This document shows positions 1 through 16,604 of a stretch of DNA of 16,787 nt, piece after piece (the stretch's first letter is position 1; every line of letters starts with the position of its first letter). Made by a program: the position numbers and the translations under genes. Origin of the DNA: Candidatus Lindowiibacteriota bacterium (lineage in GTDB: Bacteria; Lindowbacteria; 2-12-FULL-62-27). The notes under the pieces are model-generated. The model saw only the letters and a list, made by a program, of their open reading frames with translations, was not told the origin of the DNA and searched no databases. The stretch lies in the NCBI GenBank assembly GCA_023249255.1, contig JAHFCY010000043.1, positions 1 through 16,787 of the forward strand. Reading direction: 5' to 3'.

Positions 1-1065
1 TCCGCCGATTTTATATCGCGAGTCCGTGAAGCCGGAAAGAACGGAAACGGATCGTCGGTTGTCAGCGTCATTCTGGATGGCGAGAACGCGTGGGAATATT
101 ATGCGACGGGATCATGCCGGCCGTTTTTGACGGACCTTTTTTCAGCTCTGGCCAAATCCGACATTGCAACCCGCACATGCGCGAGTCTGTCGCAGGGAGG
201 CAATGGCGGCGAGTCTCCCCTGCCGCATCTTTCGCCCGGATCCTGGATCAACGCGAATTTCGACATCTGGATCGGCCACTCCGAAGACAACGCCGGCTGG
301 GACGCCGTTCAGACGGTCCGGAAGGCCGTTGAGTCCATGCCGGCCGGGGATGCCCGTGACCACGCCGCGCGGCTACTCCGGATCACAGAGGGCAGTGACT
401 GGTACTGGTGGTTCGGGGATGACCACAGTTCCATGGACGATCCGATGTTCGACCGGTTATTTCGGGAAAACCTGATGGCGATCTGCAAACTCGCGGGCGT
501 CCCCGCGCCGACCGAAATTTTATATCCGATCAAGAAAGGCCAGGGGGTGTTGGAGGCCAAGCCGCCAACCGAGCGGTTCACACCGACCATCGACGGCCGC
601 ATCCGCCCGTTTTACGAGTGGCTGGGGGCGGCGCGAATCGACGTCAGTTTCATGGCCGGAGCGATGCACAAGGCGATCTATTATCTGGATGAGCTGTACT
701 GGGGATTTGATGAGACGAACATGTACGTGTGTCTGGAGTTGTCCGACGTCCCGGACGGCGCGGGCGTACAGCTTCATTTCCGGACGGACCGCGAGGACGT
801 GGATGTCCACTTATCAATGGATCCGCTCGTCCGGCACGGCACAGTCAAAGGCGTGGGGCGGGAATGCACGGTACTCGCCGCGCGGGGGGATGTGCTCGAA
901 GCGGCCATTCCGCTGGAGATCCTGGGCGCGGCTGCCGGAACGCGGCTTCTGCTGTCGATCATGATTATGTCAGGCGGCATGGAGATCGAGCGATGGCCGG
1001 TGGGGAAGCATCTCGAAATCGTCGTGCCGGATCCCGCGTTTTATTCCTCGCAGTGGATGGTGTGA
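1..1065 (+). CDS. GH57 family glycoside hydrolase (alpha-amylase type), C-terminal part, 5' end outside window
   Basis: The reading frame is open from base 1, so the gene starts upstream; 354 residues are visible. Near the visible N-terminus is ILDGENAWEYY (about residues 24-34), the GH57 motif carrying the acid/base Asp (visible residue 26). WYWWFGDDHSS and FDRLFRENL further on are typical of the helical region after the barrel in alpha-amylase-type GH57 proteins. From about residue 195 a beta-rich segment (FYEWLGAARIDV, IYYLDELYWGFDETNMYVCLEL) resembles the glucodextranase-C/DOMON-like domain often appended to these enzymes, probably for sugar binding. The expected role is hydrolysis or rearrangement of alpha-1,4 glucans such as glycogen. 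The nucleophile Glu would lie upstream and cannot be checked. The stop overlaps the next gene's GTG start (GTGA), indicating coupling. Family assignment is firm; exact substrate is not. Confidence 0.9.
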   Translation, partial: SADFISRVREAGKNGNGSSVVSVILDGENAWEYYATGSCRPFLTDLFSALAKSDIATRTCASLSQGGNGGESPLPHLSPGSWINANFDIWIGHSEDNAGWDAVQTVRKAVESMPAGDARDHAARLLRITEGSDWYWWFGDDHSSMDDPMFDRLFRENLMAICKLAGVPAPTEILYPIKKGQGVLEAKPPTERFTPTIDGRIRPFYEWLGAARIDVSFMAGAMHKAIYYLDELYWGFDETNMYVCLELSDVPDGAGVQLHFRTDREDVDVHLSMDPLVRHGTVKGVGRECTVLAARGDVLEAAIPLEILGAAAGTRLLLSIMIMSGGMEIERWPVGKHLEIVVPDPAFYSSQWMV

Positions 1066-3032
1066 CGATCGCACTGTCGTTTATCTTCGGCGTTCATTGC
1101 CATCAGCCCGTCGGCCAGCTCGAGTCTGTCATCGACCGGACCGCCGACGACTGTTATTTCCCGTTTTTCCGCGCGGTTGAGGAATTCCCGTCGTTCAAAC
1201 TGTGCGCGCATTTCTCCGGCGCGCTTCTTCAACAGATCGAACCCCGCCGGCCGGAACTGATCGCGCTGATCAAAACTCTCGTCGGCCGCGGGCAGATCGA
1301 GCTTATCGGTGGAGCGATGTACGATCCGATTCTATCCGCCCTGCCGGAAGCGGACCGCAGCGGGCAGATCAGGCGGTTCAGCGATTATCTGGAAAAAAAA
1401 TTTGGCAATCGGCCCAAAGGATTCTGGCCGGCGCATCTCGCGTGGGAGCCGCACCTGTGCCGGCCGATCCGGGAAGCGGGCATTGAATTTATTTTTCTGG
1501 ACGAGCAACATGTCGTCGCAGCCGGCGTGGATGCCCGCGGCATTCACGGCGTGTATCTCACCGAGGACAGCGGACACCGGCTGAAGATTTTGCCCATCAA
1601 CAGGAATATGGGGGACGCGATTGCCAAAAAGTCCGTGGCAGCGGCTGTCGGGGCGATCCGGGAGAAAGCTGCAACGGGGACGGATTCATCCGGGCTGGTT
1701 TTGACGTTCATGGACGATATCGAAAAGTTCAGCGGGCGTGGGGGAGACGGAGAGCGCGGCCGCGACTGGACGAATGCTTTTTTGGAAGCCGTACAGGGAA
1801 TCGAAACCGTCATGATCTCAACGCCAACCGAGGCGATTCCGAAAAGCGCGGCCACCGGGCCGATCTATATTCCCCCCATTTCCGCAGGCGGCATGTGGCG
1901 TGGGTTTTTTTACAACTATCCCGAATCCAACTGGACGCACAAACGGGTCTTCGGCGCGGCGCAAAAAATGGGACCGGTACTGGACAAGTTGGGGTCGGAC
2001 AGAGAAGCCAGGGCCATCCGCGATCTTTTGGACCGGGCCTGGTGCAGCGACGTGTACCAGCGAGACGACTCCGGCGGTCTCTACGCTCCACATCTTCGAC
2101 ACGCCGTCTTCGCCAATCTGCTCGAAGCCGAAACGCGGTTTTCGAAAAAAATGGGCGTTTTTCCTGCGATCGAGGAGGACGACACGGACTGCGACGGACA
2201 GCCGGAACTTCTTGCGGCCGTTGACGACTGGATCATTGCCGTCAAACCCGCCATGGGCGGGGGCGTCATCGAGTGGTCTTTTCGTCCCGCATACTACAAT
2301 TTCCAAAACACTCTGACGCGGCGGCCGGAGGCCTGTCATCAGTCGGCGGATCCAAAACCCCGGCGGATTATTCTGACGCCGACCGGAGGTGAATCGGACG
2401 ATGCGACGCGGGATGTGCGACGGGACATCGTCTACGACCGCTATCGAAAATCGAGTGGTCTGTTACATGCGCTCGACCCGGCCGTCTCCTTGGATGATTT
2501 CAAAACCCAGTCCCTTCCGGAGAAAACGGCGGCCGACGGACCCTATGAATGTAAAACCGAAACGCGGCCTGAAACATTCAGTATTCATTTGAAGCGCAAC
2601 GCCGGCGGGTTTTCTTTTGAGAAGCATATTGTGATTTCAAAACACGAAAGTAGAATTTCCGTATCGGCTTCGATGCAGGGCCCGGCCGTGAAGAATCCGG
2701 CGGTGCTCGGAATGGGACTCGAATTATTTTACAGTTCGGAATCGCATCTGGCTGTGAAATTCGCCGACTCGGGCTCACCCGGCAGATTCGAGGGTGAATT
2801 TCGGGGCGAAGGCGCCGAGATCGAAGACGGGATCAGCCGGACCCGGTTGCGGTTGACGTCGGACAGGCCGATTCGCTGGATGACCGTTCCGTCCTACACC
2901 GTATCCAAATCGGACTCGGGGTTGGACAAAACGTTTCAAGGCCTGTCGATGCTGTTGGTTTGCGAAGAAAGCGACGTCCCGCGGCAGAATTTGGCTTTGA
3001 CGATTGACGCGGGACAGATCGCAGGCCTGTAA
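1062..3032 (+). CDS. GH57 4-alpha-glucanotransferase/alpha-amylase-like protein with DUF1925-DUF1926 domains; nucleophile Glu replaced by His
   Basis: Starting at GTG 1062, which overlaps the previous stop, the product is 656 aa, matching the roughly 659 aa of Thermococcus litoralis 4-alpha-glucanotransferase. The GH57 barrel covers about residues 1-300 (IFGVHCHQPVG, with H12 and H14), followed by the middle helical domain (GFFYNYPESNWTHKR) and a beta-sandwich C-terminal domain (about 380-656). Alignment by eye to the T. litoralis enzyme is good throughout, but the nucleophile region WLTERVW reads WPAHLAW, putting His125 where the catalytic Glu123 belongs. The acid/base region is kept as DDIEKF (D218/D219; the family has DDGEKF). 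The family YWHG motif reads YQRD (332-335). I infer loss or change of catalysis, perhaps leaving a glucan-binding or regulatory role. The frame is intact, so it is not an obvious pseudogene. The longer frame open from 729 is an extension inside the upstream gene. Confidence 0.88.
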   Translation: MTIALSFIFGVHCHQPVGQLESVIDRTADDCYFPFFRAVEEFPSFKLCAHFSGALLQQIEPRRPELIALIKTLVGRGQIELIGGAMYDPILSALPEADRSGQIRRFSDYLEKKFGNRPKGFWPAHLAWEPHLCRPIREAGIEFIFLDEQHVVAAGVDARGIHGVYLTEDSGHRLKILPINRNMGDAIAKKSVAAAVGAIREKAATGTDSSGLVLTFMDDIEKFSGRGGDGERGRDWTNAFLEAVQGIETVMISTPTEAIPKSAATGPIYIPPISAGGMWRGFFYNYPESNWTHKRVFGAAQKMGPVLDKLGSDREARAIRDLLDRAWCSDVYQRDDSGGLYAPHLRHAVFANLLEAETRFSKKMGVFPAIEEDDTDCDGQPELLAAVDDWIIAVKPAMGGGVIEWSFRPAYYNFQNTLTRRPEACHQSADPKPRRIILTPTGGESDDATRDVRRDIVYDRYRKSSGLLHALDPAVSLDDFKTQSLPEKTAADGPYECKTETRPETFSIHLKRNAGGFSFEKHIVISKHESRISVSASMQGPAVKNPAVLGMGLELFYSSESHLAVKFADSGSPGRFEGEFRGEGAEIEDGISRTRLRLTSDRPIRWMTVPSYTVSKSDSGLDKTFQGLSMLLVCEESDVPRQNLALTIDAGQIAGL

Positions 3033-3081
3033 GCCCGGGCGACGCGCGGGCGTACCAGAACGAATGGAGGACATTTAACTC

Positions 3082-4119
3082 ATGCCGGAACTTCGACGTG
3101 ATCCCCTTTCCCATCGGTGGGTCATCATCGCGACGGAGCGGGCGATGCGGCCCAGCGATTTTCGAGTGGAGAATCCCAAACCCATCGAGGGCAACATCTG
3201 CCCGTTCTGTCCGGGCAACGAGCATCTGACGCCTCCCGAGATCCTGGCGATCCGACCCGCGCCTGCCGAGCGCAACAAGCCCGGCTGGACGCTTCGCGTG
3301 ATTCCAAACAAATATCCGGCGTTGCGGATCGAAGGAGAACTGGGACGCAAGGGATACGGCATCTACGACAAGATGAACGGCATCGGCGCGCACGAAGTCA
3401 TCATCGAAACATCGACCCACAAGCAGGAACTGCCTGATTATTCCCAGACGCAGACCGAGATGATCCTCCGGGCATACCGGGACCGGCTCGCGGATCTCAA
3501 GAACGACCAGCGGTTCAAATACATGCTCGCGTTCAAAAATCACGGAGCGCGCGCCGGCGCGACGCTCGAACACTCGCACTCGCAGTTAATCGCCATGCCC
3601 GTCACGCCCAAACGCGTCGCCGAGGAGCTCGACTACTGCCGGGAATATTACGGCTACAAAGACCGATGTCTTCTGTGCGACATCATCTCCCAGGAACAGC
3701 TTCTGGAGGAGCGGCTCGTCCTTGTGGAGGAGAACATGGTTGCGATCATGCCCTACGCCTCGCGGTTTCCGTTCGAGGTTCATATTCTGCCGAGACGGCA
3801 CATGCACGACTACTGCAAAATCAGCGACCGTGAAATCTCATCTCTGGCCTATGTGCTCAAGAGCGTCCTTAAAAAAATCCGGCAAGCCCTTGGAGACCCG
3901 AGTTACAACTACATCCTTCACACCTCGCCCGTGACCCATCCGCGGCCGGGGCATCCAGAGCAGTGGGGTACCATCGAGATGGACTATCACTGGCACATCG
4001 AAATCATCCCGAGGCTCACGCGGATTGCCGGCTTTGAGTGGGGGACGGGGTTTTACATCAATCCGGTGACGCCCGAGAACGCCGCGAAATTTTTGCGGGA
4101 TGAAAACGTGGACGTCTGA
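3082..4119 (+). CDS. galT: GalT-family nucleotidylyltransferase: galactose-1-phosphate uridylyltransferase or ADP-glucose phosphorylase-like
   Basis: This 345-aa protein has the double-HIT fold of GalT. Zinc ligands appear as CPFC (C40, C43) with H104 (GAHEVIIE) and H164. The nucleotidylation motif is HSHSQ (164-168), with nucleophile His166. The second half has CLLC, YPFEV-like RFPFEVHILPRRH, and HWHIEIIPRL...GFEWGTGFYINPV. GalT transfers UMP between glucose-1-P and galactose-1-P in the Leloir pathway. However, HSHSQ rather than the HPHGQ of classical GalT, together with the GFEWGTGFYINP ending, resembles the Arabidopsis GalT-like ADP-glucose phosphorylase. Because it sits directly before an ADP-glucose-using glycogen synthase, an ADP-glucose role is plausible (inference). 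GGAGG at 3066-3070 precedes the ATG by 11 nt. The stop is 3 nt before glgA, so co-translation is likely. The gene symbol follows family convention only. Confidence 0.9.
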   Translation: MPELRRDPLSHRWVIIATERAMRPSDFRVENPKPIEGNICPFCPGNEHLTPPEILAIRPAPAERNKPGWTLRVIPNKYPALRIEGELGRKGYGIYDKMNGIGAHEVIIETSTHKQELPDYSQTQTEMILRAYRDRLADLKNDQRFKYMLAFKNHGARAGATLEHSHSQLIAMPVTPKRVAEELDYCREYYGYKDRCLLCDIISQEQLLEERLVLVEENMVAIMPYASRFPFEVHILPRRHMHDYCKISDREISSLAYVLKSVLKKIRQALGDPSYNYILHTSPVTHPRPGHPEQWGTIEMDYHWHIEIIPRLTRIAGFEWGTGFYINPVTPENAAKFLRDENVDV

Positions 4120-4122
4120 TCC

Positions 4123-5850
4123 ATGAAAATCGCGTTCGTTTCGGCCGAAGTCACACCGTTTTCGAAGACGGGCGGACTGGCCGACGTCTCGGGGACCCTG
4201 CCGCCGGCGCTGGCCGCCCTGGGACACGAGGTCCTCGTCATCACGCCGCTCTACGCATCGATCGACCGGACCGCGCACGGACTCACGTTGATATCCACCC
4301 GGGGCGGAATTCCCGGCATGGGCGGCACCGAAATATGGGAGGGGAGACTTGGCAACGCGGCGCGGAGATCGCGTGTGTTATTCATCGGCGCGGCCGCATT
4401 CGACCGGGCGGGATTGTATCAGGAAAACAGCAGGGACTACATCGACAACGACGAGCGATTTGGATTTTTCTCACGGGCCGCTCTCCTGCTTCTCAAGCAT
4501 CTCGGGTTTCAGCCCGATGTCATTCACGCCCACGACTGGCAGGCCGCATTGATTCCCGTCTACCTCAAAACGCGTTATCAGGATGATGAATTCTTTTCCC
4601 GGACCGGCTCGATCCTCACCATCCATAATCTGGTTTACCAGGGAGTGTTTGAGGCCGCCCGATGGCGCAGTCTCGGTCTGCCGAATCATCTATTCCGGAT
4701 GGAGGCGCTCGAATTTTACGGCAAGATCAATTTTCTGAAGGGCGGGATCATTTTCTCGGACGTCGTCACCACCGTCAGTCCCCGATACGCGCGGGAGATT
4801 CAGACCCGGAGTTTCGGCGCGGGACTCGAAGGCATTCTGTATTCGCGTCGCCACAGCCTCACCGGCGTCTTGAACGGCCTCGATTATGATGAATGGAGTC
4901 CGGCGTGCGATGCCAATCTGTTTCCGCCCTACGACATCCGGAATCTCGCCGGCAAATCCGCAGCCAAGAAAATGCTTCTTGAAAAAATGGATATGTCGGC
5001 GGGGGACGGAAACCCGGATCCTCCCGTCATGGGCTGCGTCACGCGGCTCGATCCGCAAAAAGGATGCGATATCCTGCTTCGCGCGATGTTTCAGATTCTG
5101 CCGAGGACCGATTCCCGCCTGATTCTGCTCGGATCGGGCGCCCGGGACCTCGAGACCGCATTTGGCAACCTTGCGCGGGCCTTTCCAAATAAAGTAAGGG
5201 TGAACCTGAAATTCGACACCGAACTCGCCAAACTGATTTACGCCGGAAGCGATTTTTTTCTGATGCCGTCAAAGTATGAGCCTTGCGGGCTCGGGCAGAT
5301 GATCGCGATGTCATACGGAACGGCGCCGGTGGTCCGGCTAACCGGCGGGTTGGCCGACACGGTCAAACCGTGGCAGGCGGCGGCGAAACAGGGGAACGGA
5401 TTCGGGTTCGAAAGCTATACGGCAAACGCGCTAATCGGGACCCTGATGAAAGCATTCGAGGCGTATCGCAGGCCGGGCGTGTTTCGAATGATTCAAACCT
5501 ATGCCATGCAGGAGCGCTTTACGTGGGATCGGGCGGCGCGCGCGTACGCGACGCTGTACGGACGCGCCGTGTATTTTCGACAGAAAGGAGGTGGGGGAGA
5601 AATGGCTGTGAAAGCGATGAAGAAGGCTGCGGAGCCTGTGTCCCTGGTTTACGAGATCGGCGAAAACGCCGGCAAGGTGTATCAGTATTTATCCGACAAG
5701 TCCGAGGCGGAGAGTATCGCGCAGATCGCCAAGGGTGCGGGGCTCGAAGTATCAGTCGCCGCGATGGCGATTGGATGGCTTGCCCGTGAGAACAATGTTT
5801 CCGTGGAGAAAGCCGGCAAAAACGTTCAAGTCCGGTTGATCCGGCGGTAA
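4123..5850 (+). CDS. glgA: Glycogen synthase (GT5) fused to C-terminal winged-helix domain (DUF2582 type)
   Basis: Residues 1 to about 487 are a complete bacterial glycogen synthase, which extends alpha-1,4-glucan from ADP-glucose in the cytoplasm. Visible marks are the N-terminal KTGGLADVSG (K15, ADP-glucose contact), HAHDWQAALIPVYLK, TIHNLVYQG, GVLNGLDYDEWSP, and SKYEPCGLGQ (E386, the conserved GT-B Glu region) followed by LTGGLADTV. Usual GlgA length is about 480 aa; this one is 575. After a KGGGGE linker, residues 494-575 form a winged-helix domain (AGKVYQYLSDK, GWLARENNVSVEK, VQVRLI) like the small stand-alone DUF2582 proteins. The linker is encoded by a Shine-Dalgarno sequence followed by an in-frame ATG, so the domain could also be made separately. 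Start ATG 4123 lies 3 nt after the upstream stop and leads straight into the canonical MKIAFVSAEV. The GlgA assignment is very secure; the fusion is read directly from an uninterrupted frame. Confidence 0.96.
   Translation: MKIAFVSAEVTPFSKTGGLADVSGTLPPALAALGHEVLVITPLYASIDRTAHGLTLISTRGGIPGMGGTEIWEGRLGNAARRSRVLFIGAAAFDRAGLYQENSRDYIDNDERFGFFSRAALLLLKHLGFQPDVIHAHDWQAALIPVYLKTRYQDDEFFSRTGSILTIHNLVYQGVFEAARWRSLGLPNHLFRMEALEFYGKINFLKGGIIFSDVVTTVSPRYAREIQTRSFGAGLEGILYSRRHSLTGVLNGLDYDEWSPACDANLFPPYDIRNLAGKSAAKKMLLEKMDMSAGDGNPDPPVMGCVTRLDPQKGCDILLRAMFQILPRTDSRLILLGSGARDLETAFGNLARAFPNKVRVNLKFDTELAKLIYAGSDFFLMPSKYEPCGLGQMIAMSYGTAPVVRLTGGLADTVKPWQAAAKQGNGFGFESYTANALIGTLMKAFEAYRRPGVFRMIQTYAMQERFTWDRAARAYATLYGRAVYFRQKGGGGEMAVKAMKKAAEPVSLVYEIGENAGKVYQYLSDKSEAESIAQIAKGAGLEVSVAAMAIGWLARENNVSVEKAGKNVQVRLIRR
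5584..5604 (+). promoter_or_regulatory. Internal ribosome binding site and in-frame ATG within glgA
   Basis: AAAGGAGGT at 5584-5592 is a near-perfect anti-16S complement. It lies 9 nt before ATG 5602-5604, which is in frame with glgA (Met494). Initiation here would give an 82-aa stand-alone winged-helix protein (5602-5850). The same bases are translated as the KGGGGE linker in the full-length protein. Either both products are made, or this is the relic of a gene start left after a stop-codon loss fused two genes. No upstream gene in this operon has a stronger Shine-Dalgarno. Confidence 0.7.
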
Positions 5851-5893
5851 TCGGGCGGCCGAAAAATCGGCGATCCCGAACAGGCGGTGGGAT

Positions 5894-6754
5894 GTGAAGA
5901 AAAAACTGATCATCGTCCTCTCGATCGTGGGAGGTGTACTCTGCGTCGGCGGCGCCGTCTCCTATTTTTTCTTCTGGGACGATCTGCGGCTCTTGTTCGG
6001 GCAGGCAACCGTCAAACAAAAAAGTGCGGGCAACGATGACCTGCTGAGCGATTTTTCCGATGAGGCCCCGGCGGAAAAAGGCCCGACGGCGGCGGGGGCG
6101 GCCAAACCCGTCAATATCGCAAACACCGGCGGAGGAGAAACCAAACCGGTGGAGACCGTCCGGAAGGAGGAGGCAGGCGGCGAGGATATCGGAGGCGACG
6201 AGGAGGACATGGAGGAAGAATCTCCGGCGGCGCCGCAGAAATCTTCTCCGGCCGCACCGGCGACGGCGGCGAAAAAATCCGAGGCCGTACCGGCGTTAAC
6301 ACGCGGCGGAGGAACGACGGTTGCCCCAACCCCGGAGCCTCCAAAGCCATCGAAACCAGTGGCGGGGGCGGCGAGGCCGTCGAAGAAGGAAGAGCCGGAA
6401 GAGCTCGGGGATGAGGAAGAGCAGGCGCGGCCCGCACCCAGGAGTGTCCACGCCGCCAAGCCGGTTGTCTCCAAACCCGCGGCGAAACAGGCGGAGCCGT
6501 CGGCAGACCTATCCGTGCATCAAAAAACGCAAGCGCTGATTCAGCGGAAAAAATATGCCGAAGCCGAAACATTGCTCAAACAGCATTTGGGAACACATCC
6601 ATCCGACGGCGACGCACATTTCATGATGGGATTTTTGATGATGCAACAGGGCCGGAAGGGGCAAGCCGTTGCGTTTTTTCAGAGGGCGGCGCAGACAACA
6701 AAGGACCCGGAAATCCGCCTGATGGCGGAACAATATTTGAAAAAGTTAAAGTGA
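5894..6754 (+). CDS. Membrane-anchored TPR protein with long low-complexity linker
   Basis: This 286-aa protein starts at GTG 5894 (MKKKLIIVLS), 43 nt after glgA. Lys residues precede one transmembrane helix (about residues 5-28, ending YFFFW), giving either a signal anchor or an uncleaved signal peptide. Residues about 45-205 are disordered and rich in Ala, Pro, Glu, Lys and Gly, including acidic runs (GGDEEDMEEE, EEPEELGDEEEQ). The last roughly 85 residues contain helical repeats of TPR type (KKYAEAETLLKQHLGTHPSDGDAHFMMGFLMMQQGRKG is split over two repeats). It probably scaffolds a protein interaction on the far side of the inner membrane. I do not recognise a named family. It is the last gene of the glycogen operon, and its TGA stop lies inside the AT-rich inverted repeat. 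Coding status is supported by the TPR pattern and start spacing; function is unknown. Confidence 0.8.
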   Translation: MKKKLIIVLSIVGGVLCVGGAVSYFFFWDDLRLLFGQATVKQKSAGNDDLLSDFSDEAPAEKGPTAAGAAKPVNIANTGGGETKPVETVRKEEAGGEDIGGDEEDMEEESPAAPQKSSPAAPATAAKKSEAVPALTRGGGTTVAPTPEPPKPSKPVAGAARPSKKEEPEELGDEEEQARPAPRSVHAAKPVVSKPAAKQAEPSADLSVHQKTQALIQRKKYAEAETLLKQHLGTHPSDGDAHFMMGFLMMQQGRKGQAVAFFQRAAQTTKDPEIRLMAEQYLKKLK

Positions 6755-6791
6755 TATCATGATATCATGATATATATCATGATATCACTTT
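6748..6791. repeat. AT-rich perfect inverted repeat between convergent genes, possible bidirectional terminator
   Basis: Two perfect 18-bp arms (6748-6765, AAAGTGATATCATGATAT, and 6774-6791) flank an 8-nt loop. Internally it is built of repeated GATATCAT units. The stop codon of the TPR gene (6752-6754) lies in the left arm, and the convergent metallophosphoesterase gene ends at 6823. The AAA...TTT ends give each strand a short U run after the hairpin, consistent with a two-way terminator. The stem is almost free of G and C, which is unusual for a terminator and foreign to the GC-rich surroundings. It could instead be a dispersed palindromic repeat or a protein-binding site. The remaining gap to 6822 shows nothing else. 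Confidence 0.7.
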
Positions 6792-6822
6792 GAATTTGAC
6801 CCGGACGCGATCAACACGCGAT

Positions 6823-7995
6823 TCAAGTCAACACAATCCGCGTCAGTTCCGCAGGAGCGGCGATGCGCATGGGTGGACCCCAGGTGCCGGTGCCCCGGCT
6901 GACGTAAATCTGGGTCTGATCGCGGCGGTGCAGGCCGCTGATATACGGCTGGGCGGCCATCACCACGACGCCAAACGGCCAGATTTGTCCGCCGTGAGTG
7001 TGTCCGGACAATTGCAGATCGACCCCGGCGGAAACGGCAGCCGCGATTTCACGCGGTTGATGCGCCAGAAGCACGGTCGGAAGATCGGCCGGGCGATTGG
7101 CAAGAGCACGGGGAATATCAGGCCAGTCATCCGGTGACACACCGCTGATTTCCCGGATCGTCCGATCCGGAATTCCCGCCAGGAAAATAGCGCCGGCCAC
7201 GGGCAATCCCGAATTATGCAGAATGGTGATTCCCATTCGCCGGATTTGATCCAGCCACGGGTCGGTTTCGACGTAGTATTCGTGATTGCCCGTCACAAAA
7301 AAAACTCCATGCAACGCCGACAATTTTGCAAAGACACCGATCTTATCGCCCAGCCGGTCGACCTCGCCGTCGACGAGATCGCCCGTGATGACGACGACAT
7401 CCGGACGCGACGCGTTCACCCGATCGACGATGCGTTCCAGAAATTCCAGTGGCGTCCAGGGCGACACATGCAGATCGGTCAACTGGACGATTGTGAATCC
7501 TCGTGCGAGCGGCGGCAGGCGGTCGAGTCGAACCGGAACGTCCTTCCATGCCGGATCCTTGAACGTGTTCATCATGCCGCGCGCCACGCCGGCGACGCCG
7601 ATCGTCAAAGTCCCGACCGCAAGCGTTCGCAGAAGAAATTGCCGGCGAGCTGGATCGAACGCCGTTTTTTTCCGGATTTTGGAATACAGAAACACTGCCA
7701 GTGGAATCACTTCAAAAATGCCGCGCAGACACACCAGATAAAACAAAATCGCAAGCCATGACATGAGTCCCAGAAACACAATGCTATCGATCGGCTGGAT
7801 CAGACGCCGACGCAAAAAGAAACAGAATGGAAAGAGGATCGTCAATACCGCGAATCCCCATCCAAAACTCCGGACCCATCGGCCCGGCATGCCCGTGTCT
7901 TTCAAGAATCGTTTCCAGAAATATGCATGCATTCCGCCCGAGGCGACAAGAAGAAATCCGAGCCAGAACGTCCAGAGCAGAGAAGATCTATTCAC
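6823..7995 (-). CDS. Membrane-attached metallophosphoesterase (YkuE/YaeI-like)
   Basis: This 390-aa calcineurin-like phosphoesterase has all metal-binding motifs: TDLHVS (D174, H176), TGDLVDG (D206), TGNHEYY (N237, H238), AHQP (H312) and SGHTHGGQ (H332, H334). Upstream of the domain are about three or four hydrophobic helices (residues 5-28, 41-62, 71-105). A further hydrophobic segment (about 119-140) is introduced by PARRQFLLR, which looks like a twin-arginine signal; YkuE of Bacillus is a known Tat substrate. The catalytic domain probably faces outward at the inner membrane. Likely substrates are phosphodiesters or lipid-linked phosphates, but none can be assigned. The GTG start at 7995 lies 6 nt after the RND pump stop, making this the last gene of the efflux operon. 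That position hints at an envelope role, though it may be simple co-transcription. Confidence 0.92.
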   Translation of the reverse strand: MNRSSLLWTFWLGFLLVASGGMHAYFWKRFLKDTGMPGRWVRSFGWGFAVLTILFPFCFFLRRRLIQPIDSIVFLGLMSWLAILFYLVCLRGIFEVIPLAVFLYSKIRKKTAFDPARRQFLLRTLAVGTLTIGVAGVARGMMNTFKDPAWKDVPVRLDRLPPLARGFTIVQLTDLHVSPWTPLEFLERIVDRVNASRPDVVVITGDLVDGEVDRLGDKIGVFAKLSALHGVFFVTGNHEYYVETDPWLDQIRRMGITILHNSGLPVAGAIFLAGIPDRTIREISGVSPDDWPDIPRALANRPADLPTVLLAHQPREIAAAVSAGVDLQLSGHTHGGQIWPFGVVVMAAQPYISGLHRRDQTQIYVSRGTGTWGPPMRIAAPAELTRIVLT

Positions 7996-8001
7996 GACAA
8001 A

Positions 8002-11000
8002 TCATACTTCATGCGGCTTGTCGGCGGGAGGGATCCCAATCAGGGCAGGGACCGGGCTGGACGGATATATCCAGTGCGCAACTCGTTTGACCCATCTCAC
8101 GCCGTCATCCATGAACGTGTAAATCACAGGGACGATAAAAAGCGTGAGGAACGTGGAGGAGAGCATGCCGAATCCGGTCGCAATGCCCATGGGCCGGCGG
8201 ACCTCGGATCCCGCGCCTGTGCTGAAGACGATCGGCAGAACGCCGCAAATCATGGCGACGCTGGTCATGAGAATGGGCCGCAGGCGGATGGGGCCGGCGT
8301 GGAGCATGGCATCCCGGGCCGAGGCGCCGTCGCGCTGGCGCGTCACGGCGAAATCGACGAGCAAGATCGCGTTTTTTTTGCAGATACCCATGAGCGTGAT
8401 GATCCCGATCGCGCTGAAGAGGTTCATCGTCTGGCCGAAAATCGCCAGCCCGCCGACACCCCCGATGAGCGCAAGCGGCAGGGACAGCATCACCGTCATC
8501 GGATGAACGAGGCTTTCATACTGCGCGGCCAGAACCATGTAGGCGGTCAGGAGGGACAGAACAAACGCAAAAAGCAGGCTTTGCATCGATTCTGTAAATT
8601 CCTTGCTCTGGCCCACCAGCACCGTCCGGAAATCCTTCGGCAATGTTTCTTTCGCAATGCGGTCAACCTCCTTGATCGCCTCGCCCAGCGTTTTTCCCGG
8701 TTGGAGGTTGGCGGTCAGCCGAACAGACCGCTCGCGCGAATATCGATTGATCGAATCGGGGCCCACGCCCTCGACGCGGTGCGCGACGCTGGACAGCGGC
8801 ACGAGTTTTCCGTCGCGGGCCCGCACGTAAATGCGGTCGATGGCCGACGGATCGTTTCGAAACGCTGCGTCCAACTGCGGAATGATATCGTAGCGTTTGC
8901 CGCGGAGCTTGAATTTTGCGACGTCGTCCTCGCCCAGGAGTACCTGAAGCGCCGCGGCGATGTCCCGGACCGACAGGCCCAGGTCGGCGGCGCGTTTCCG
9001 GTCAACGGTGATTTTGAGTTCCGGTTTGTTGAGATCCAGATCCGAATCGATGTCGATGAGGCCCGGAATCGTCTTCATTTTTTCGAGCATGATCGCCTCA
9101 TATTTTTTCAGCGCCGCAAAGTCGCCGCTTTGGATCATGTACTGCAGAGCCGCGTCGGCACGGCCCAGGCGAACCGTTGGAATCGGAAAAACGTACCCGA
9201 CGAGGCCGGTGATGCCGCCCAGCCTGCGGCGGAGTTCCCCGATGACGGCATCCTGGCCGCGCGAACGCTCCTCGCGCGGTTTGAGCCGGACAAAAATGAT
9301 GCTCTTGCGGGGCGACGGCGGCCCGGCCTGCGCAAGTCCAATGGCCGAAAAGAACGTGCTGACTTCGGGAATCGACGCCACGATCGCCTCGGCCTGGAGT
9401 TGATACCGGTTCATGTATTCAAACGTCGCTCCCTGCGGCGCCTCGAGGTTGACGACAAAGGACCCCTTGTCCTCCGGCGGGAAAAATTCCGTTTTTAATT
9501 TGTAGCGGATCAGGCTGAACGACCCGGCAAGAGCCGCGATGCCGATCAACACCATCACAAAGCGGTGATCCAGCGCAAACGCCAGCATCCGCCGGTACCG
9601 TTCGGAAAACCACTCCCAGAACCGGTCAACGGACCGCAGAATCCGATTCGTGGGCCGGCCGACCGACAGCATGCGGGAACACATCATGGGCGTGAGAGCC
9701 AGCGCGATAAAAAGCGAAATGAGCACGGCGATCGAGATGGTCATGCCGAATTCATGGAAAAACCGGCCGATGAGTCCGTACATGAACGCGACCGGCAGGA
9801 AAATGGCCGCGATCGCAAGAGTGGCCGCGATCGCCGCGCCGGAAATTTCGGCCGCGCCCGCATGCGCCGCTTCAACGCCCGTCGTGCCTTCCTCCATTTT
9901 CCGGTAAATATTTTCAAGGACGACGATGGCGTCGTCGATGACGACGCCGACGGAAACAGACAGAGCCAGAAACGTGAAATTGTTGAGTGAAAACCCGAGG
10001 TAGAACATGACCCCAAACGTCGCGATGATGGACGTCGGAATGGCGACCGCGGCAATGACGGTGGATCGGAGCGACAGTAGAAAAACGAAAATCACGGCGG
10101 CGGCAAAAATTCCCCCGAGAACGAAATCCTCCCTGATCGCGCGGATGCTGTTTTCAATGTACTGCGACGAATCAAATGCCGTGCGGATCTGCATGTCCGG
10201 CGGTAAATTTTTTTGAATCTCCGGCAACATGTCTTTCACGCGGCGCGCGACGTCCACGGTGTTGGCTTTGCTCTGCTTGAGAATCCCGAGTCCGACCGAC
10301 GGATCGCCGTTGAACCGCGCAAGACTGCGGTAATTGGTGATGCCCGATTCGGCGCGGCCGACGTCGCGGAGTCGGACCGGCACGCCGTCTTTGACCGCGA
10401 GCACGATCTCGTTCATCTCGTCGACCGAGGAAAATTCTCCCTCCGTTTTGACCACAAACTCGCGGCGGTTGGACTCGATCCGTCCTGACGGAATTTCGAT
10501 GTGCTCGGTCCGGAATGCGGTGACCACGTCTGCGGCCGTTATGCCCTGCGCGGCCATTTTCCGGGCATCCAACCAGATCCGAACCGCGAATTTCCGGGAT
10601 CCGCCGATGATGATGCTCCCGACGCCGGGCAATCGCTGAATCTGTTCCTTGAGCACGTTCTCGGCGTATTCGGTCAGTTCGACGTTGGTCATCTTCGGGG
10701 ACGTGAGAGCCAGCCACATGATCGCCTGCGCGTTCAGGTCGAGTTTGCTGATTTGAGGCTCATCCATGTCTGACGGGAGATTTCGGCGGGCCGCGCCGAC
10801 TTTATCGCGGACGTCCTGGGCGGCGGCGTCGATCTCGCGTTCAAGATTGAATTCGATGGTGACGGACGACAACCCTTCGGACGAGACGCTGGTGAGCGTT
10901 TTCACGCCTTCGATCGTATTGACCGCCTCTTCGATCACGTCCGTGATCTCCGTCTCCACGATTTCGGGACTTGCACCCGGCAGGGATACATTCACCGTGA

Positions 11001-11133
11001 CGATCGGAATTTCAACGTCGGGCACTTCCCGAACTTCGAGTTTTCGATATCCGAGGAGACCGACGATGACAAGACCCATCGTGAGCATGACGGCCGTGAC
11101 AGGCCGGCGGATAAAAAGGCTGGAGAGGAACAT
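8002..11133 (-). CDS. RND multidrug efflux pump, AcrB/HAE1 type
   Basis: At 1043 aa this is a full-length RND inner-membrane transporter. It begins MFLSSLFIRRPV, a typical RND N-terminus with TM1, followed by the porter motif LPGASPEIVE. TM4 carries the paired proton-relay Asp residues (GVVIDDAIVVLENIY, D400 and D401), and TM10 carries the matching Lys (GICKKNAILLVDFA, K919/K920). Two-fold repeat architecture with large periplasmic loops is evident. These residues and the adaptor and channel genes just upstream support drug or amphiphile export by proton antiport rather than heavy-metal export, although the substrate is unknown. The ATG at 11133 is 16 nt after the adaptor stop, with no strong Shine-Dalgarno, so reinitiation is likely. 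All key residues are present and the frame is intact. Confidence 0.96.
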   Translation of the reverse strand: MFLSSLFIRRPVTAVMLTMGLVIVGLLGYRKLEVREVPDVEIPIVTVNVSLPGASPEIVETEITDVIEEAVNTIEGVKTLTSVSSEGLSSVTIEFNLEREIDAAAQDVRDKVGAARRNLPSDMDEPQISKLDLNAQAIMWLALTSPKMTNVELTEYAENVLKEQIQRLPGVGSIIIGGSRKFAVRIWLDARKMAAQGITAADVVTAFRTEHIEIPSGRIESNRREFVVKTEGEFSSVDEMNEIVLAVKDGVPVRLRDVGRAESGITNYRSLARFNGDPSVGLGILKQSKANTVDVARRVKDMLPEIQKNLPPDMQIRTAFDSSQYIENSIRAIREDFVLGGIFAAAVIFVFLLSLRSTVIAAVAIPTSIIATFGVMFYLGFSLNNFTFLALSVSVGVVIDDAIVVLENIYRKMEEGTTGVEAAHAGAAEISGAAIAATLAIAAIFLPVAFMYGLIGRFFHEFGMTISIAVLISLFIALALTPMMCSRMLSVGRPTNRILRSVDRFWEWFSERYRRMLAFALDHRFVMVLIGIAALAGSFSLIRYKLKTEFFPPEDKGSFVVNLEAPQGATFEYMNRYQLQAEAIVASIPEVSTFFSAIGLAQAGPPSPRKSIIFVRLKPREERSRGQDAVIGELRRRLGGITGLVGYVFPIPTVRLGRADAALQYMIQSGDFAALKKYEAIMLEKMKTIPGLIDIDSDLDLNKPELKITVDRKRAADLGLSVRDIAAALQVLLGEDDVAKFKLRGKRYDIIPQLDAAFRNDPSAIDRIYVRARDGKLVPLSSVAHRVEGVGPDSINRYSRERSVRLTANLQPGKTLGEAIKEVDRIAKETLPKDFRTVLVGQSKEFTESMQSLLFAFVLSLLTAYMVLAAQYESLVHPMTVMLSLPLALIGGVGGLAIFGQTMNLFSAIGIITLMGICKKNAILLVDFAVTRQRDGASARDAMLHAGPIRLRPILMTSVAMICGVLPIVFSTGAGSEVRRPMGIATGFGMLSSTFLTLFIVPVIYTFMDDGVRWVKRVAHWIYPSSPVPALIGIPPADKPHEV

Positions 11134-11149
11134 CAGGTCGCGGGGATCG

Positions 11150-12613
11150 TCAGGATCCCGGGTTCACGCGAACCGGCGCGCCGTCGCGGATTTTCTGGAT
11201 GCCGGCCACAACCACCTGATCGCCCGGCTTGATCCCGGACAGAACCTGAACCTGCCCTCCCTGGCGCAGTCCGATCCGAATCTGTCGAAGGTGGGCAACG
11301 CCATTTTCAACGACAAAAACGAACGAATCTCCGCCCTGGGGCACAATCGATTCCTCCGGAATGACCGTCGCGGACGGGAAATCGCCGATATCGATGCGAA
11401 CCGTGGCAAACAGACCGGCCTTGAGTTTGCGCGCGGCGTTTGGAATCCGCATCTTCATGAGAACGGTTCTGGTTTTTTCGTCAACGGCAGGATCGATGTA
11501 ATAGATCACGCCACGAAACGTCTCGTCCGGGTACGGTTCCAGCCGCGCCTCGGCCGATTGGCCGATTCGAATTTTATTGATGTATCGTTCCGGCACCTGA
11601 AAAACAATCCGCACCGTCGACAGATCGTACAGTTCAAAAATCAACGCGGCTTTGTCGACGAAATCTCCGACCGCCACGCGACGCTCCGACAACACGCCAT
11701 CCATCGGCGCAATCAACGTCAGATCTTTCATGCGCGCCTTGATCAGGTTGAGTTCGGATACCGCATGTTGAACCGCGGGGTGGACATCGACGGAATTGTT
11801 TTCATCGGCTGCATCGCCGAGTGCGGTGAGAAGCGCCTGTTCAGCCGCGCGGGCCGCATCCAATTCGGCCTTCGCCTGTTTCACCATCGGATGATCGTCG
11901 ATCGCGTCTTTCCGGGCGGAAATCGTGGAGAGGCCGGCCAGCACGGCGGCGCGGTCCGCCTCGGCCTGTTTGACGGCGGTGGTCACCTTTTCCAGGTCGT
12001 CCTGTGTTTTGAATTCTTTTTCGAACAACGCCCGCGTCCGGGCCTCGTCCTGGTGCGCCCGCTCGAGAACCGCGTCAGCCCGGTCAAGTCGCGCGAACAT
12101 TTCCCGAACCGCCTGACGCGCCTGATCGATGGACGCGGCCGCCTGCGCGATCTGCGCGCGGGCCGTCGCGAGTTGTTTGCGCTGTTGAAGGATTGACTGG
12201 CGGATTTGCCGCACACCCGCCTCGGCGACATCCTCCTCCTGTGCAAATTTCGAGGGATCCAACTCCACCAGAATATCCCCCTTTTTCACGTTCTCGCCTT
12301 CGTCAAAATGCATTGCAACAATCCGGCCTGCGATCTCCGGTTTAATCTGCGCCTTCTCGTTCGCCTCGATGGTTCCGACCGCCTCCGCTGCGTCCTCAAG
12401 GTGTTGAGTTTTCGCCGGCGCGACGTCCACCAGCGGCGGCAAAACGGCGGGCGCGACCGGTGTGGAATCGACGGCGGATGATTTCGCCGGCCCAGCCGAT
12501 TTTTGTTTGGCTCCGCAAGCGGCAAGAAAGAGGGACAGGCATAGGAAGAAACTGACGAGCGGACGAGCGGACGAGCGGATAAACGGACGAGACGGGGGAT
12601 AGAATCGATTCAT
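11150..12613 (-). CDS. Periplasmic adaptor (membrane fusion) lipoprotein of RND efflux system
   Basis: This 487-aa adaptor links the RND pump to the outer-membrane channel. An N-terminal hydrophobic stretch ends in the lipobox LAAC, so it is a lipid-anchored protein. The biotinyl-lipoyl half is GTIEANEKAQIKPEIAGRIVAMHFDEGENVKKGDILVELD; its counterpart is LIAPMDGVLSERRVAVGDFV. Between them lies a coiled-coil hairpin (about residues 110-300) that is longer than in AcrA-type adaptors (380-400 aa in total) and contains a duplicated DxHPxVxxAxxEL element (His241 and His278). Beta-barrel and membrane-proximal domains follow (RIVFQVPERYINKIRIG, GDQVVVAGIQKIRDGAPVRV). The ATG at 12613 overlaps the tolC-like stop as ATGA, which fixes the start. 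Eight-base tandem repeats lie within codons about 7-20. Confidence 0.95.
   Translation of the reverse strand: MNRFYPPSRPFIRSSARPLVSFFLCLSLFLAACGAKQKSAGPAKSSAVDSTPVAPAVLPPLVDVAPAKTQHLEDAAEAVGTIEANEKAQIKPEIAGRIVAMHFDEGENVKKGDILVELDPSKFAQEEDVAEAGVRQIRQSILQQRKQLATARAQIAQAAASIDQARQAVREMFARLDRADAVLERAHQDEARTRALFEKEFKTQDDLEKVTTAVKQAEADRAAVLAGLSTISARKDAIDDHPMVKQAKAELDAARAAEQALLTALGDAADENNSVDVHPAVQHAVSELNLIKARMKDLTLIAPMDGVLSERRVAVGDFVDKAALIFELYDLSTVRIVFQVPERYINKIRIGQSAEARLEPYPDETFRGVIYYIDPAVDEKTRTVLMKMRIPNAARKLKAGLFATVRIDIGDFPSATVIPEESIVPQGGDSFVFVVENGVAHLRQIRIGLRQGGQVQVLSGIKPGDQVVVAGIQKIRDGAPVRVNPGS
12554..12593. repeat. 8-bp tandem repeat (GACGAGCG) within the adaptor signal-peptide code
   Basis: Three exact copies of GACGAGCG occupy 12554-12577. 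A degenerate copy follows (12578-12585, GATAAACG), then a partial one (12586-12593, GACGAGAC). They encode roughly residues 7-20 of the adaptor on the opposite strand, including the Arg/Ser/Pro n-region before the hydrophobic core. Because 8 is not a multiple of 3, gain or loss of a unit would shift the frame. No ATG or GTG start follows the repeat before the lipobox. Confidence 0.8.
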
Positions 12614-13965
12614 CGGGCGGATTCGCCTTTCAGATAGGATTTGTCGATTGTTCCGACAGCAAAGTCGGCCTTTCGGCGCGCAATCTGCAAGTCAGCCCGG
12701 GTGGCGGCAACTTGTTCTTCGGCTGTGATCAGGGCCGTGTGGGCGTCGGCCACATCAACCGGCGTTGCGAGGCCTTCCCGGTATTGAGCGGTTTCGCGAT
12801 CATAATTTTCCTGCGCCAACCTCACCTGGTTGCGGCCCTCCTCCAAAATTGCGTTCAGGGACTCGATGTCCAACATCGCCTCCCGCACGTCGAGTTCCAC
12901 CTCGCGCGAGAGATACATGCGGGAGAGCGTGGCCTGATGCAGCACGATTTTGGACTGTTCGTATTCGGCATCCCGGCCAAACCCCTCGAAAATATCGTAA
13001 TCGAGTTTGGCCTGAACCTGCCAGTTGTCGTTTTCTCGAAAGGCGCTGACGTTTTCGGTCCGGGAGAGATTGCCGATCAGTTTGGCGGACGGAAAATATT
13101 TGGCGCGGGCAATCTTCACTCCCTCCTCCGAAGCCTGGATATCAAGTTGTGCGATGCGTGCGTCGGACCGGGCCACCATCGCCTGCTGGACCAGGGGATC
13201 CAGATGGGACAGATTCCATGATTCATCCGCGTCGGCCTCCGCATTCTGGACGGGTGATATCACCGGTTCGCCGATGAGAAAGCCGAGGCGAACGCGTGAC
13301 GTCTGAACGGCATTTTCAGCGCGCAACAGGTCGGTTTTCGCCTTGGTGACTTCAACCTCGGCGCGGACCACGTCCGTGCGGGTGGCGGTCCCGGCATTTT
13401 TTCTGGCTTGGGCCTGATTCAACTCCTGCTGGGCCAGATCGAGAGATCGTTGAGACACCGTCAATTTTTCCTGTTCACGGATCACCGAAAAATAAGCAAC
13501 CGACACATCGAGGAGCAATGCCTGTTTGGCAAAGCGAATCTGCTCGCGGGATATTTCCTCCCCCACTTTCGATGCCCGAAGCGCCGCCCATTCCTTTCCT
13601 CCGCCGTATAGCGGCTGTTCCAGATCAAGGCGCAGATCCCGGTTGTATCGAAATGTCGCGAACCCTCCGGCACCGGCGACTTTGTTCATGGACTGCGTAA
13701 CGGACGTTGAAAGCGTCGGAAGAATTCCGGCGCGAGCCCGGCGGATATTCTCACGGGTCGATGCCATCTGCTCCTCCGACAACTGAATTTTTTCGTTCCG
13801 GTCAAGGGCCAGGCGGCAGGCCATGTCCAGAGTCAATCCGCCGGACGCAACGGGTTCGCGGATCGCGACCTCCATCGGAGACGCGGCGCGGGATGGGAGC
13901 ACGAAGGCTATCCCAAGACACACGGCAAGAGCGGCGGATGCAGCGAAGGACATTCGCAGGGTCAC
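12610..13965 (-). CDS. TolC-like outer-membrane efflux channel
   Basis: This 451-aa protein is of the outer membrane efflux family. A signal peptide (hydrophobic residues about 7-24, ending PSRAAS) suggests signal peptidase I cleavage. The mature part shows the two-fold OEP repeat: TLDMACRLALDRNEKIQLSEEQM opens the first half, and DPLVQQAMVARSDARIAQLDIQASEEGVKIARAKYFPS opens the second, with long heptad-rich helices between (QQELNQAQARKNAGTATRTDVVRAEVEV is a typical segment, here broken by GTATRTD). RYNRDLRLDLEQPLYGGG is a strand region of the barrel. It should form the trimeric outer-membrane exit duct for the RND pump encoded two genes downstream. Start GTG 13965 is chosen because AGGAGG lies 5 nt upstream and the codon overlaps the tetR stop (GTGA). 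Met5 (13953) is an alternative. Confidence 0.95.
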   Translation of the reverse strand: MTLRMSFAASAALAVCLGIAFVLPSRAASPMEVAIREPVASGGLTLDMACRLALDRNEKIQLSEEQMASTRENIRRARAGILPTLSTSVTQSMNKVAGAGGFATFRYNRDLRLDLEQPLYGGGKEWAALRASKVGEEISREQIRFAKQALLLDVSVAYFSVIREQEKLTVSQRSLDLAQQELNQAQARKNAGTATRTDVVRAEVEVTKAKTDLLRAENAVQTSRVRLGFLIGEPVISPVQNAEADADESWNLSHLDPLVQQAMVARSDARIAQLDIQASEEGVKIARAKYFPSAKLIGNLSRTENVSAFRENDNWQVQAKLDYDIFEGFGRDAEYEQSKIVLHQATLSRMYLSREVELDVREAMLDIESLNAILEEGRNQVRLAQENYDRETAQYREGLATPVDVADAHTALITAEEQVAATRADLQIARRKADFAVGTIDKSYLKGESAR

Positions 13966-14540
13966 GATTTCCTCCTGCCGCGAAATCCGTTCAAAAACAT
14001 GTCGACTAAAAATACGGAATCCCAGTCCGGATCAATTTTCTCATCGGAGAATCCGAGTTTCTGGCGAAGGTGCCCGAACACCATGCTGTGGAACACCGCG
14101 GCCGCCCGGATGTGGGATGCGCCGCCGAGGATCCGGGCGATCCGGACGTTCGCATCCGCGGCCATTTTTCGCATCGCGGACCGGACGGACACGATCGACA
14201 GCGCGCCTTCCCGAACAAACACCCGAAGAAGCGCCGGGCGCGCCGCAAAATACGCAAGCCATTCGCGAGCGGCCGCGGCGAGTTGATCCCGAACGGGCAG
14301 GCCGGGCCGGATTGCGGACAAAAGTCTATCAGACATTTCGTGCGACGTGCGGTTAAGCGCCGCCAGAAGCAGTTTCTCCTTGCTGTGAAAATGCCGGTAG
14401 ACGGTCCCTTTGCCGACGCCCGCGGAGAACATGACATCCTCGACCGTGGCCGAAAAGTATCCCTTTTGCGAAAACACGCGGCAGGCCGCCTCCAAAATCT
14501 TCTCCGCCTCCGCCGGCTTGCGTCCAACCCCAGCCCTCAT
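13962..14540 (-). CDS. TetR/AcrR-family transcriptional repressor of the efflux operon
   Basis: This 192-aa regulator has a typical TetR N-terminal DNA-binding domain: ILEAACRVFSQKGYFSATVEDV followed by AGVGKGTVYRHFHSKEKLLLAAL, split here at about residue 37, with the helix-turn-helix at roughly 32-51. The variable C-terminal domain should bind the inducer, probably a pump substrate. The frame is open to an ATG at 14591, but I prefer ATG 14540: it has a purine-rich AGGAAAGGGG stretch upstream, and the longer start would place the operator palindrome inside the coding region. It is the first gene of the five-gene efflux operon and divergent from the helicase. Autorepression is inferred from the palindrome 16 nt upstream. 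Confidence 0.93.
   Translation of the reverse strand: MRAGVGRKPAEAEKILEAACRVFSQKGYFSATVEDVMFSAGVGKGTVYRHFHSKEKLLLAALNRTSHEMSDRLLSAIRPGLPVRDQLAAAAREWLAYFAARPALLRVFVREGALSIVSVRSAMRKMAADANVRIARILGGASHIRAAAVFHSMVFGHLRQKLGFSDEKIDPDWDSVFLVDMFLNGFRGRRKS
13963..13976 (-). promoter_or_regulatory. Shine-Dalgarno of tolC-like gene embedded in the end of tetR
   Basis: On the minus strand AGGAGG (13976-13971) lies 5 nt before GTG 13965-13963. These bases are also the last codons of tetR (Arg-Arg-Lys-Ser-stop). The overlap decides the GTG start over the downstream ATG and implies coupled translation. Confidence 0.8.
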
Positions 14541-14556
14541 CCTCGTCCCCTTTCCT

Positions 14557-14584
14557 ATTTCGGACTGACCAGTCAGTCCGAAAT
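14557..14584. promoter_or_regulatory. Palindromic operator, likely TetR-family binding site
   Basis: Perfect 13-bp arms (14557-14569, ATTTCGGACTGAC, and 14572-14584) are separated by 2 bp. The GACTGACCAGTCAGTC core is typical in shape for AcrR/TetR operators that contain GACTGAC half-sites. It lies immediately downstream of the predicted -10 box and upstream of the tetR start, where bound repressor would block initiation or early elongation. Confidence 0.85.
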
Positions 14585-14591
14585 TATCCAT

Positions 14592-14620
14592 ACCTTACCC
14601 GCAAGCGGCGCGGATGTCAA
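14592..14620 (-). promoter_or_regulatory. Sigma70-type promoter of the efflux operon
   Basis: On the minus strand a consensus -35 TTGACA (14620-14615) is followed by exactly 17 nt and then TAAGGT (14597-14592), a weak -10. Transcription would start near 14585, at the edge of the palindromic operator. The strong -35, ideal spacing and position above tetR make this credible. A second -10-like GATAAT nearer the operator is too far from the -35. Confidence 0.6.
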
Positions 14621-14675
14621 GCGGCGGAGCCGACCATTGCATCCGTAGCGCAATCCCTGATAGGGTGCGTGGCTT

Positions 14676-15902: not shown

Positions 15903-16585
15903 CAGTATCTCTTGCCGACTTCCACAATCTGGGCGTGATAGTCGTTCCATAATTCCACCACTGCCGACCGCCCGACGCCCTTCCCCGGCGCCGCTTCAAA
16001 TGTTTTGCGGATCTCTTCGTACGGCTCATCCCCCCGAATCCATCCATGCCGCGCAAAAATTCGACGGGTGTAGGCGTCGACCACAAAAATCGGGTTTCCT
16101 ATCGCGTATAGTAATATGGAGTCAGCGGTTTCCGGACCCACGCCGTGAAGACCCAGAAGTTCACCGCGAGCGGCCTCGGGTGGCATGCGCCTCAAGCGAT
16201 CGATCCAGCGCGCCGTCGATCCAAATCCGATTACGTATCGCGCAAATTTTTTGAGTTTGATCGATTTTTGATTGAAATATCCGGACGGCCGGATGAGAGC
16301 TGCCAGACGTGATCGCGGCATTCGGGCGATTGATTCGGGCGACAGCGCGCGGGCACGGTGCAGGGCCTGAAGCGCTTTGGAGACGTTCGACCACGCCGTA
16401 TTTTGCGTGAGAATCGCGCCGACCGCGACTTCAAATCGTTGCCGGGACGTGAGCGTTTTTCGGCGCGGGTCATACACCGGCTTGGCGGACGCCTTCGCGC
16501 TGGGGCGAAAGACAGGCCACCACCCACGAATCCCATGCGCGCGTTTCAAGGCGCGGTACATCGCCAAAAACGGCGGACCTTTCAC
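15785..16585 (-). CDS. HhH-GPD DNA glycosylase, endonuclease III/MagIII-like, with incomplete Cys cluster
   Basis: This 266-aa base-excision repair protein carries VGAILTQNTAWSNVSKAL near the N-terminus, the helix-hairpin-helix LLGLHGVGPETADSILLYA, and VDAYTRRIFARHG with the catalytic Asp. Endonuclease III has GVGRKTA with the lyase Lys120; here that Lys is Glu, so a monofunctional glycosylase such as Helicobacter MagIII (3-methyladenine) is more likely. Near the C-terminus, CHRRGPDCLRC gives the first three Cys of the C-x6-C-x2-C-x5-C iron-sulfur loop, but the fourth position is Glu (PLYRREFF). Cluster binding is therefore doubtful or uses another ligand. The start is GTG 16585 or ATG 16561; the homology-like region begins close to the latter (MYRALKRAHGIRGWWP). 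The last 118 bp overlap the helicase gene on the other strand. Confidence 0.88.
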   Translation of the reverse strand: MKGPPFLAMYRALKRAHGIRGWWPVFRPSAKASAKPVYDPRRKTLTSRQRFEVAVGAILTQNTAWSNVSKALQALHRARALSPESIARMPRSRLAALIRPSGYFNQKSIKLKKFARYVIGFGSTARWIDRLRRMPPEAARGELLGLHGVGPETADSILLYAIGNPIFVVDAYTRRIFARHGWIRGDEPYEEIRKTFEAAPGKGVGRSAVVELWNDYHAQIVEVGKRYCHRRGPDCLRCPLYRREFFSSEGRFENPVLEEAEAGNPG

Positions 16586-16604
16586 GGGATCTTACAGCCC
16601 CAAC

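Follow-up and report, generated by a model that had tools for sequence, protein, structure and literature searches.

In-frame joining of a predicted glycogen synthase to a DUF2582 winged helix across a conserved Shine-Dalgarno sequence suggests a translationally nested gene pair

The window analysed here is a 16,787-nucleotide stretch of Candidatus Lindowiibacteriota DNA (assembly GCA_023249255.1, contig JAHFCY010000043.1, positions 1 to 16,787 of the forward strand). On its forward strand, a GH57 alpha-amylase or 4-alpha-glucanotransferase gene (1065..3032, +, start approximate; PF03065, PF09094, PF09095) is followed by a gene for a GalT-like hexose-1-phosphate uridylyltransferase (3082..4119, +; PF01087/PF02744) that ends 3 nt before glgA, by the glgA frame itself, which runs on into a winged-helix domain (wHTH), and by a gene for a TPR protein with a membrane-anchored look (5894..6754, +; PF14559). 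The phylum was sampled with three genomes, one per genus, namely that of the window (G000) and two others, G001 and G002, and this gene order is common to all of them. Downstream of the TPR gene, positions 8002-14591 (-) of the window encode an RND pump, a membrane-fusion protein, a TolC-like protein and a TetR regulator, a block that stands at the same place in G001 and not at that place in G002.

The glgA-wHTH frame is free of stops from 4123 to 5850 (+) and encodes 575 aa, in which GlgA is joined in frame to a DUF2582 winged helix (TIGR02095, 527 bits; PF10771, 62 bits); the same architecture is present in G002 (L126:7473-9200). Stop-codon reassignment was set aside as an explanation, the fused frame being without any stop to read through. 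The GlgA part, a GT5 glycogen (starch) synthase module of 487 residues (4123..5583, +), matches TIGR02095 over residues 1-481 with 527.5 bits against a curated cut-off of 328, which places it within GlgA; the initial annotation of this DNA had put the normal end of GlgA near residue 485. All of the active-site residues K15, G17, G18, H168, R308, K313 and E386, which are invariant or near-invariant positions in a 23-row GlgA alignment (A3), are present in the fused ORF; they represent the motifs KTGGL and HN, the R/K of RLxxQKG and the E of YEPCGL. The nearest PDB structure is 1rzu, with 2qzs and 3d1j as further GlgA structures, and the module is a predicted ADP-glucose-dependent glucan synthase. 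In its full-length GT5 module and conserved active site the fused ORF is like other GlgA proteins; unlike those of 80 other GlgA loci, it carries a C-terminal DUF2582 domain.

The two parts are connected by the linker KGGGGE (5584..5601, +), whose codons also contain the ribosome-binding site for the domain after it. It can be read directly from the letters of the junction, CGA CAG AAA GGA GGT GGG GGA GAA ATG GCT GTG AAA, in which it is encoded by the codons from AAA to GAA. The DUF2582 (PF10771) domain that follows (5602..5850, +) has its own conserved ATG and would be 82 aa long if started internally; PF10771 matches residues 511-571 of the fusion with 62.1 bits, and the score rises to 67 bits for the 82 residues on their own (gathering cut-off 24.2). 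The initial annotation had described a fusion of GlgA to an 82-residue DUF2582-like domain beginning at ATG 5602, and its coordinates and letters proved right. An AF2 model of the whole fusion gives pLDDT values mostly above 90 for GlgA and below 50 for the linker and from residue 492, and it depicts a flexible tether with no confident GlgA-wHTH interface (there were only three rows for the wHTH domain). Modelled alone, the wHTH domain is a confident winged helix (AF2 pLDDT 88.8; H-H-H-E-E wing) whose nearest PDB structures are 2l02 (BT2368) and 2l01 (BVU3908), at a Foldseek TM of 0.72-0.73 and a VIA Z of 11. It is like these standalone DUF2582 proteins in sequence, GWLARE motif and fold, and unlike every other DUF2582 surveyed that scores above the cut-off, none of which lies in a frame longer than about 125 aa, in being part of a 575-aa frame.

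Comparison of the three genera shows glgA and DUF2582 fused in G000 and G002 and split in G001. The G002 fusion is 575 aa long from its ATG and has the linker KGGDER. In G001, the junction reads AAA GGA GGG GAG TAA GCG ATG, and one in-frame TAA parts glgA from the wHTH gene. The codon that aligns with this stop is GGA in the window (5596..5598, +) and GAA in G002; the unfused arrangement is one or two substitutions away with the frame unchanged, and the step from GAA to TAA takes a single base. Each of the three genomes has one DUF2582, always at the glgA locus, and the domain is about as well conserved among the genera as GlgA (63-71% vs 61-68% identity). Because G001 shows the unfused state in the same frame, the proposal in the initial annotation that two adjacent genes were joined through loss of the glgA stop is now supported by a comparison of sequences. 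Its further description of the fusion as recent is not supported in the sense of an event unique to this genome, G002 being fused as well. The rpoB tree groups the genomes as (G000,(G001,G002)) with support of 99/98, and the GlgA gene tree left the three genera unresolved. On the rpoB tree the states run fused, split, fused, and two events are therefore needed: either two losses of the stop, or one fusion and one re-splitting. The conserved frame and length fit one ancestral fusion followed by one re-splitting slightly better than two stop losses. Taken together, the glgA stop is labile and the internal start has been retained.

Outside the phylum the fusion was not encountered. The survey covered roughly 475 distinct genomes, G000, G001 and G002 among them, and ~96 carry DUF2582; outside these three, every match above the cut-off lay in a frame of about 125 aa at most. 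The search for GlgA with a C-terminal DUF2582 that the initial annotation had recommended returned G002 and, in 80 GlgA loci from other species, no DUF2582 in or near GlgA; extending the search to the phyla of G188, G186, G059 and G020 brought in few further genomes, none of them with a fusion. Relatives with separate genes, which it had also proposed to look for, are represented by G001, and beyond the phylum glgA and DUF2582 are adjacent in G188 and G386. One locus that resembled a second fusion in a tblastn match spanning residues 1-567 (L082) was rejected, its GlgA frame ending normally. Some genomes hold two or three DUF2582 copies (G268, G131, G475 and relatives; family f130), and most others hold a single one. 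In the window's own genome, an RdgB-like frame runs into a UDP-glucose dehydrogenase, with AGGAGG ahead of the dehydrogenase ATG (L180:4909-6885, contig C30). It was considered as a second fusion linked by a Shine-Dalgarno sequence and discarded: comparison with G001 shows a frameshift in the RdgB tail, and from its sequence we judge this frame to be the product of a frameshift or assembly error and not a domain fusion.

The Shine-Dalgarno sequence within the linker, a perfect one, AAAGGAGG (5584..5591, +), lies 10 nt before ATG 5602, and its 8/8 bases and its spacing are identical in the three genera. Its duplex with ACCUCCUUA is worth -12.9 kcal/mol in the window, and the corresponding values at the wHTH start are -12.1 in G001 and -11.6 kcal/mol in G002, all calculated with the canonical anti-Shine-Dalgarno, which may not be the host's own 16S tail. 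On the same assumption of a canonical tail, the start of glgA itself pairs weakly (-3.4, -5.6 and -1.9 kcal/mol in G000, G001 and G002). The pairing at ATG 5602 is the strongest among 107 internal in-frame ATGs of the window's main genes, for which the median is -3.2 kcal/mol; in 150 kb of other contigs from the same genome, pairing of -11.5 kcal/mol or stronger is found at only 2 of 569 internal ATGs. When these contigs and the window (166 kb) were scanned for AGGAGG-N4-13-ATG opening at least 50 codons, the ATG was the start of an ORF in 6 of 8 distinct cases, the exceptions being ATG 5602 and one site within an asparagine-synthetase-like ORF. ATG 5602 is, in other words, an in-frame start with a strong Shine-Dalgarno sequence inside a longer ORF, as expected of a gene within a gene.

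The preservation of this element goes beyond what the protein sequence would demand. Among residues shared by all three genera, 75 of 300 codons (25%) are identical three ways, and the 30 nt preceding AAAGGAGG have a three-way nucleotide identity of 43%, against 8/8 bases for the element itself; the argument from synonymous conservation rests on few codons in three genomes and is given moderate weight. With that weight, the conservation favours an internal start that would work in the presence of the stop as well as in its absence. The initial annotation had interpreted the linker as a Shine-Dalgarno sequence read as protein and had thought that the internal start may give a second product, and both ideas gain from the constant sequence and spacing in fused and unfused genera alike. 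It had also pointed out that the same fusion without a Shine-Dalgarno sequence would speak against a recent fusion with two products; in the sole other fused genome, G002, the sequence is there.

We therefore favour, with a probability of roughly 0.6, the view that the locus is a translationally nested pair with two predicted products, GlgA-wHTH and free wHTH. According to this model, glgA and a small DUF2582 gene would have followed one another head to tail and in frame, the last glgA codons containing the ribosome-binding site of the small gene, and the glgA stop would have turned into a sense codon, GGA in G000 and GAA in G002. Initiation at the weak glgA site would yield the 575-residue GlgA-wHTH with its flexible tether, and ribosome entry at the strong internal AAAGGAGG would yield free wHTH of 82 residues, probably as the more abundant product. 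Free wHTH would also be made by the unfused G001 and would be the conserved product; the tethered form may have a function, with a partner that existed before the fusion now attached to GlgA, or may be a read-through product that is tolerated.

The last of these options leads to the closest competitor of the two-product model, in which read-through is nearly neutral: free wHTH would be the one small product with a function, and the tail on GlgA a tolerated by-product of a stop that flips on and off since nothing depends on it. We consider this quite conceivable, at rather less than even odds, and it overlaps with the two-product reading, both assuming a working internal start. The two changes needed among three genera on the rpoB tree, a stop lying one substitution from GAA, and a Shine-Dalgarno sequence kept regardless of fusion would all be natural if the tail had little effect, as would the flexible tether and the GlgA fold that stays confident in the AF2 model. 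A dispensable junction, however, would not need to keep its frame and the exact distance from Shine-Dalgarno to ATG in three genera, and the fused partners are also neighbours in other phyla. The converse proposal, that only the fusion protein is made, with AAAGGAGG a relic and ATG 5602 an ordinary methionine, accords with the open frame and with the position of glgA, which comes first and sends elongating ribosomes across the Shine-Dalgarno sequence. It would leave unexplained why that sequence is kept 8/8 at constant spacing despite near-saturated synonymous sites among the genera, and why no other internal site in the window's main genes pairs as strongly as 5602, and we find it improbable. 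More improbable by far is that an assembly or consensus error erased a real stop from this metagenome-assembled genome. The assembly is indeed fragmented (366 contigs, 88.7% complete), and the RdgB/UGD frame described above looks frameshifted in the same genome, but frame and homology are intact on both sides of the junction, and the error would have had to strike twice to produce the same fusion in the independent G002, which belongs to another genus.

What the wHTH domain does, whether tethered or free, is a separate matter. The initial annotation had raised the possibility that an enzyme-tethered domain links glucan synthesis to gene control, in the sense of a winged helix that binds its own operon and couples GlgA to transcription. 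A canonical winged-helix fold, with ArsR, MarR and Z-alpha domains as the next structural neighbours after 2l01 and 2l02, and a basic wing (net charge +3 to +4 in the three orthologues) would suit such a role, but the fold by itself is no proof of DNA binding. The recognition helix, helix 3 (EVSVAAMAIGWLAR), is hydrophobic with a net charge of about 0 in all three orthologues, against a family mean of +0.7, and this argues weakly against DNA binding. The positions invariant over 33 DUF2582 members, A23, G58, W59, L60 and E63, do not form a DNA-recognition pattern either, and the genomic context points to glucan enzymes and not to a regulon. The gene-control proposal has consequently lost ground, and a tethered DNA-binding regulator seems to us doubtful, a shade more so than a locus that makes the fusion protein alone.

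Genomic context points instead towards alpha-glucan metabolism. In lineages unrelated to that of the window, standalone DUF2582 genes lie immediately beside glgA in G188 and at locus L172 of G386; that of G040 adjoins glgP and a GT5-like gene, and glgP is next to DUF2582 in 30/30 loci from the phylum of G040. At L129 these two genes overlap, at the stop of DUF2582 and the start of glgP; glgB and a GH57-DUF3536 gene are the neighbours in G059 and G215, and glgC is two genes away in G186. Alpha-glucan gene neighbours were recorded at loci L117, L127, L128, L129, L141, L172 and L193-L222. In a domain-wide survey such neighbours accompany DUF2582 in 5 of about 21 independent families, and 316 kb of control loci contained no alpha-glucan gene. 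Other surroundings recur too. An order of pnp, a small biotin-carboxyl-carrier-like gene, DUF2582, uppP and ftsK was named by eye at L116, L121, L124, L125, L131, L136 and L137, and this context spans several families; exbB/exbD/TonB-like genes, likewise named by eye, flank DUF2582 at L135, L139 and L143. Because other DUF2582 families sit in pnp-uppP-ftsK or exbD surroundings, we propose a role in glucan metabolism for only some of its members.

Since unfused DUF2582 genes adjoin glgA, glgP and glgB in other lineages, we tentatively suggest that the wHTH is a small protein acting as partner or regulator of alpha-glucan enzymes (GlgA in this case), that it may associate with itself or with the enzyme, and that the fusion would tether to GlgA a protein with which it had already cooperated in trans. 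In its wider form the suggestion is equally tentative: DUF2582 may serve as such a partner in several phyla, and here may be made both tethered and free from one gene, the ratio depending on two start sites that differ greatly in strength, and with a stop that toggles between genera.

Gene fusion through loss of a stop is a known kind of event, and so is internal initiation. In the Rpn proteins, an internal start gives rise to a second, shorter product that consists of the C-terminal domain (RpnS) and binds the long form (RpnL) (PMC10327210). The present locus resembles RpnL/RpnS in that a C-terminal domain has a start codon of its own, in frame within the longer ORF, with a short product that is here predicted. 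It differs in that the nested unit was once a gene of its own, which is still found unfused in a sister genus. Fusions that join neighbouring alpha-glucan genes also have precedents, described in the available part of a 2024 review of prokaryotic alpha-glucan enzymes (PMC11046441): glgA-glgB in Criblamydiaceae/Waddliaceae, in which the branching-enzyme domain is inactive, and glgB-malQ in Neisseria suica. Those fusions unite two enzymes, whereas the one described here unites an enzyme with a winged helix, and the same part of the review contains no mention of 'winged' or 'helix-turn-helix'. Our literature search found no GlgA-DUF2582 architecture, no fusion with both states in one phylum and no recurrent DUF2582-glycogen neighbourhood; in the open-access library it returned no paper naming DUF2582 and none on Shine-Dalgarno-linker fusions.

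The occurrence of fused and split states in sister genera, one codon apart, opens the effect of the fusion to near-isogenic constructs, and the synonymous recoding of AAAGGAGGT to AAGGGCGGC would break the Shine-Dalgarno sequence in the linker. For DUF2582, a widespread family with solved structures and without a described function, its position beside glycogen genes in several lineages provides a first functional lead.
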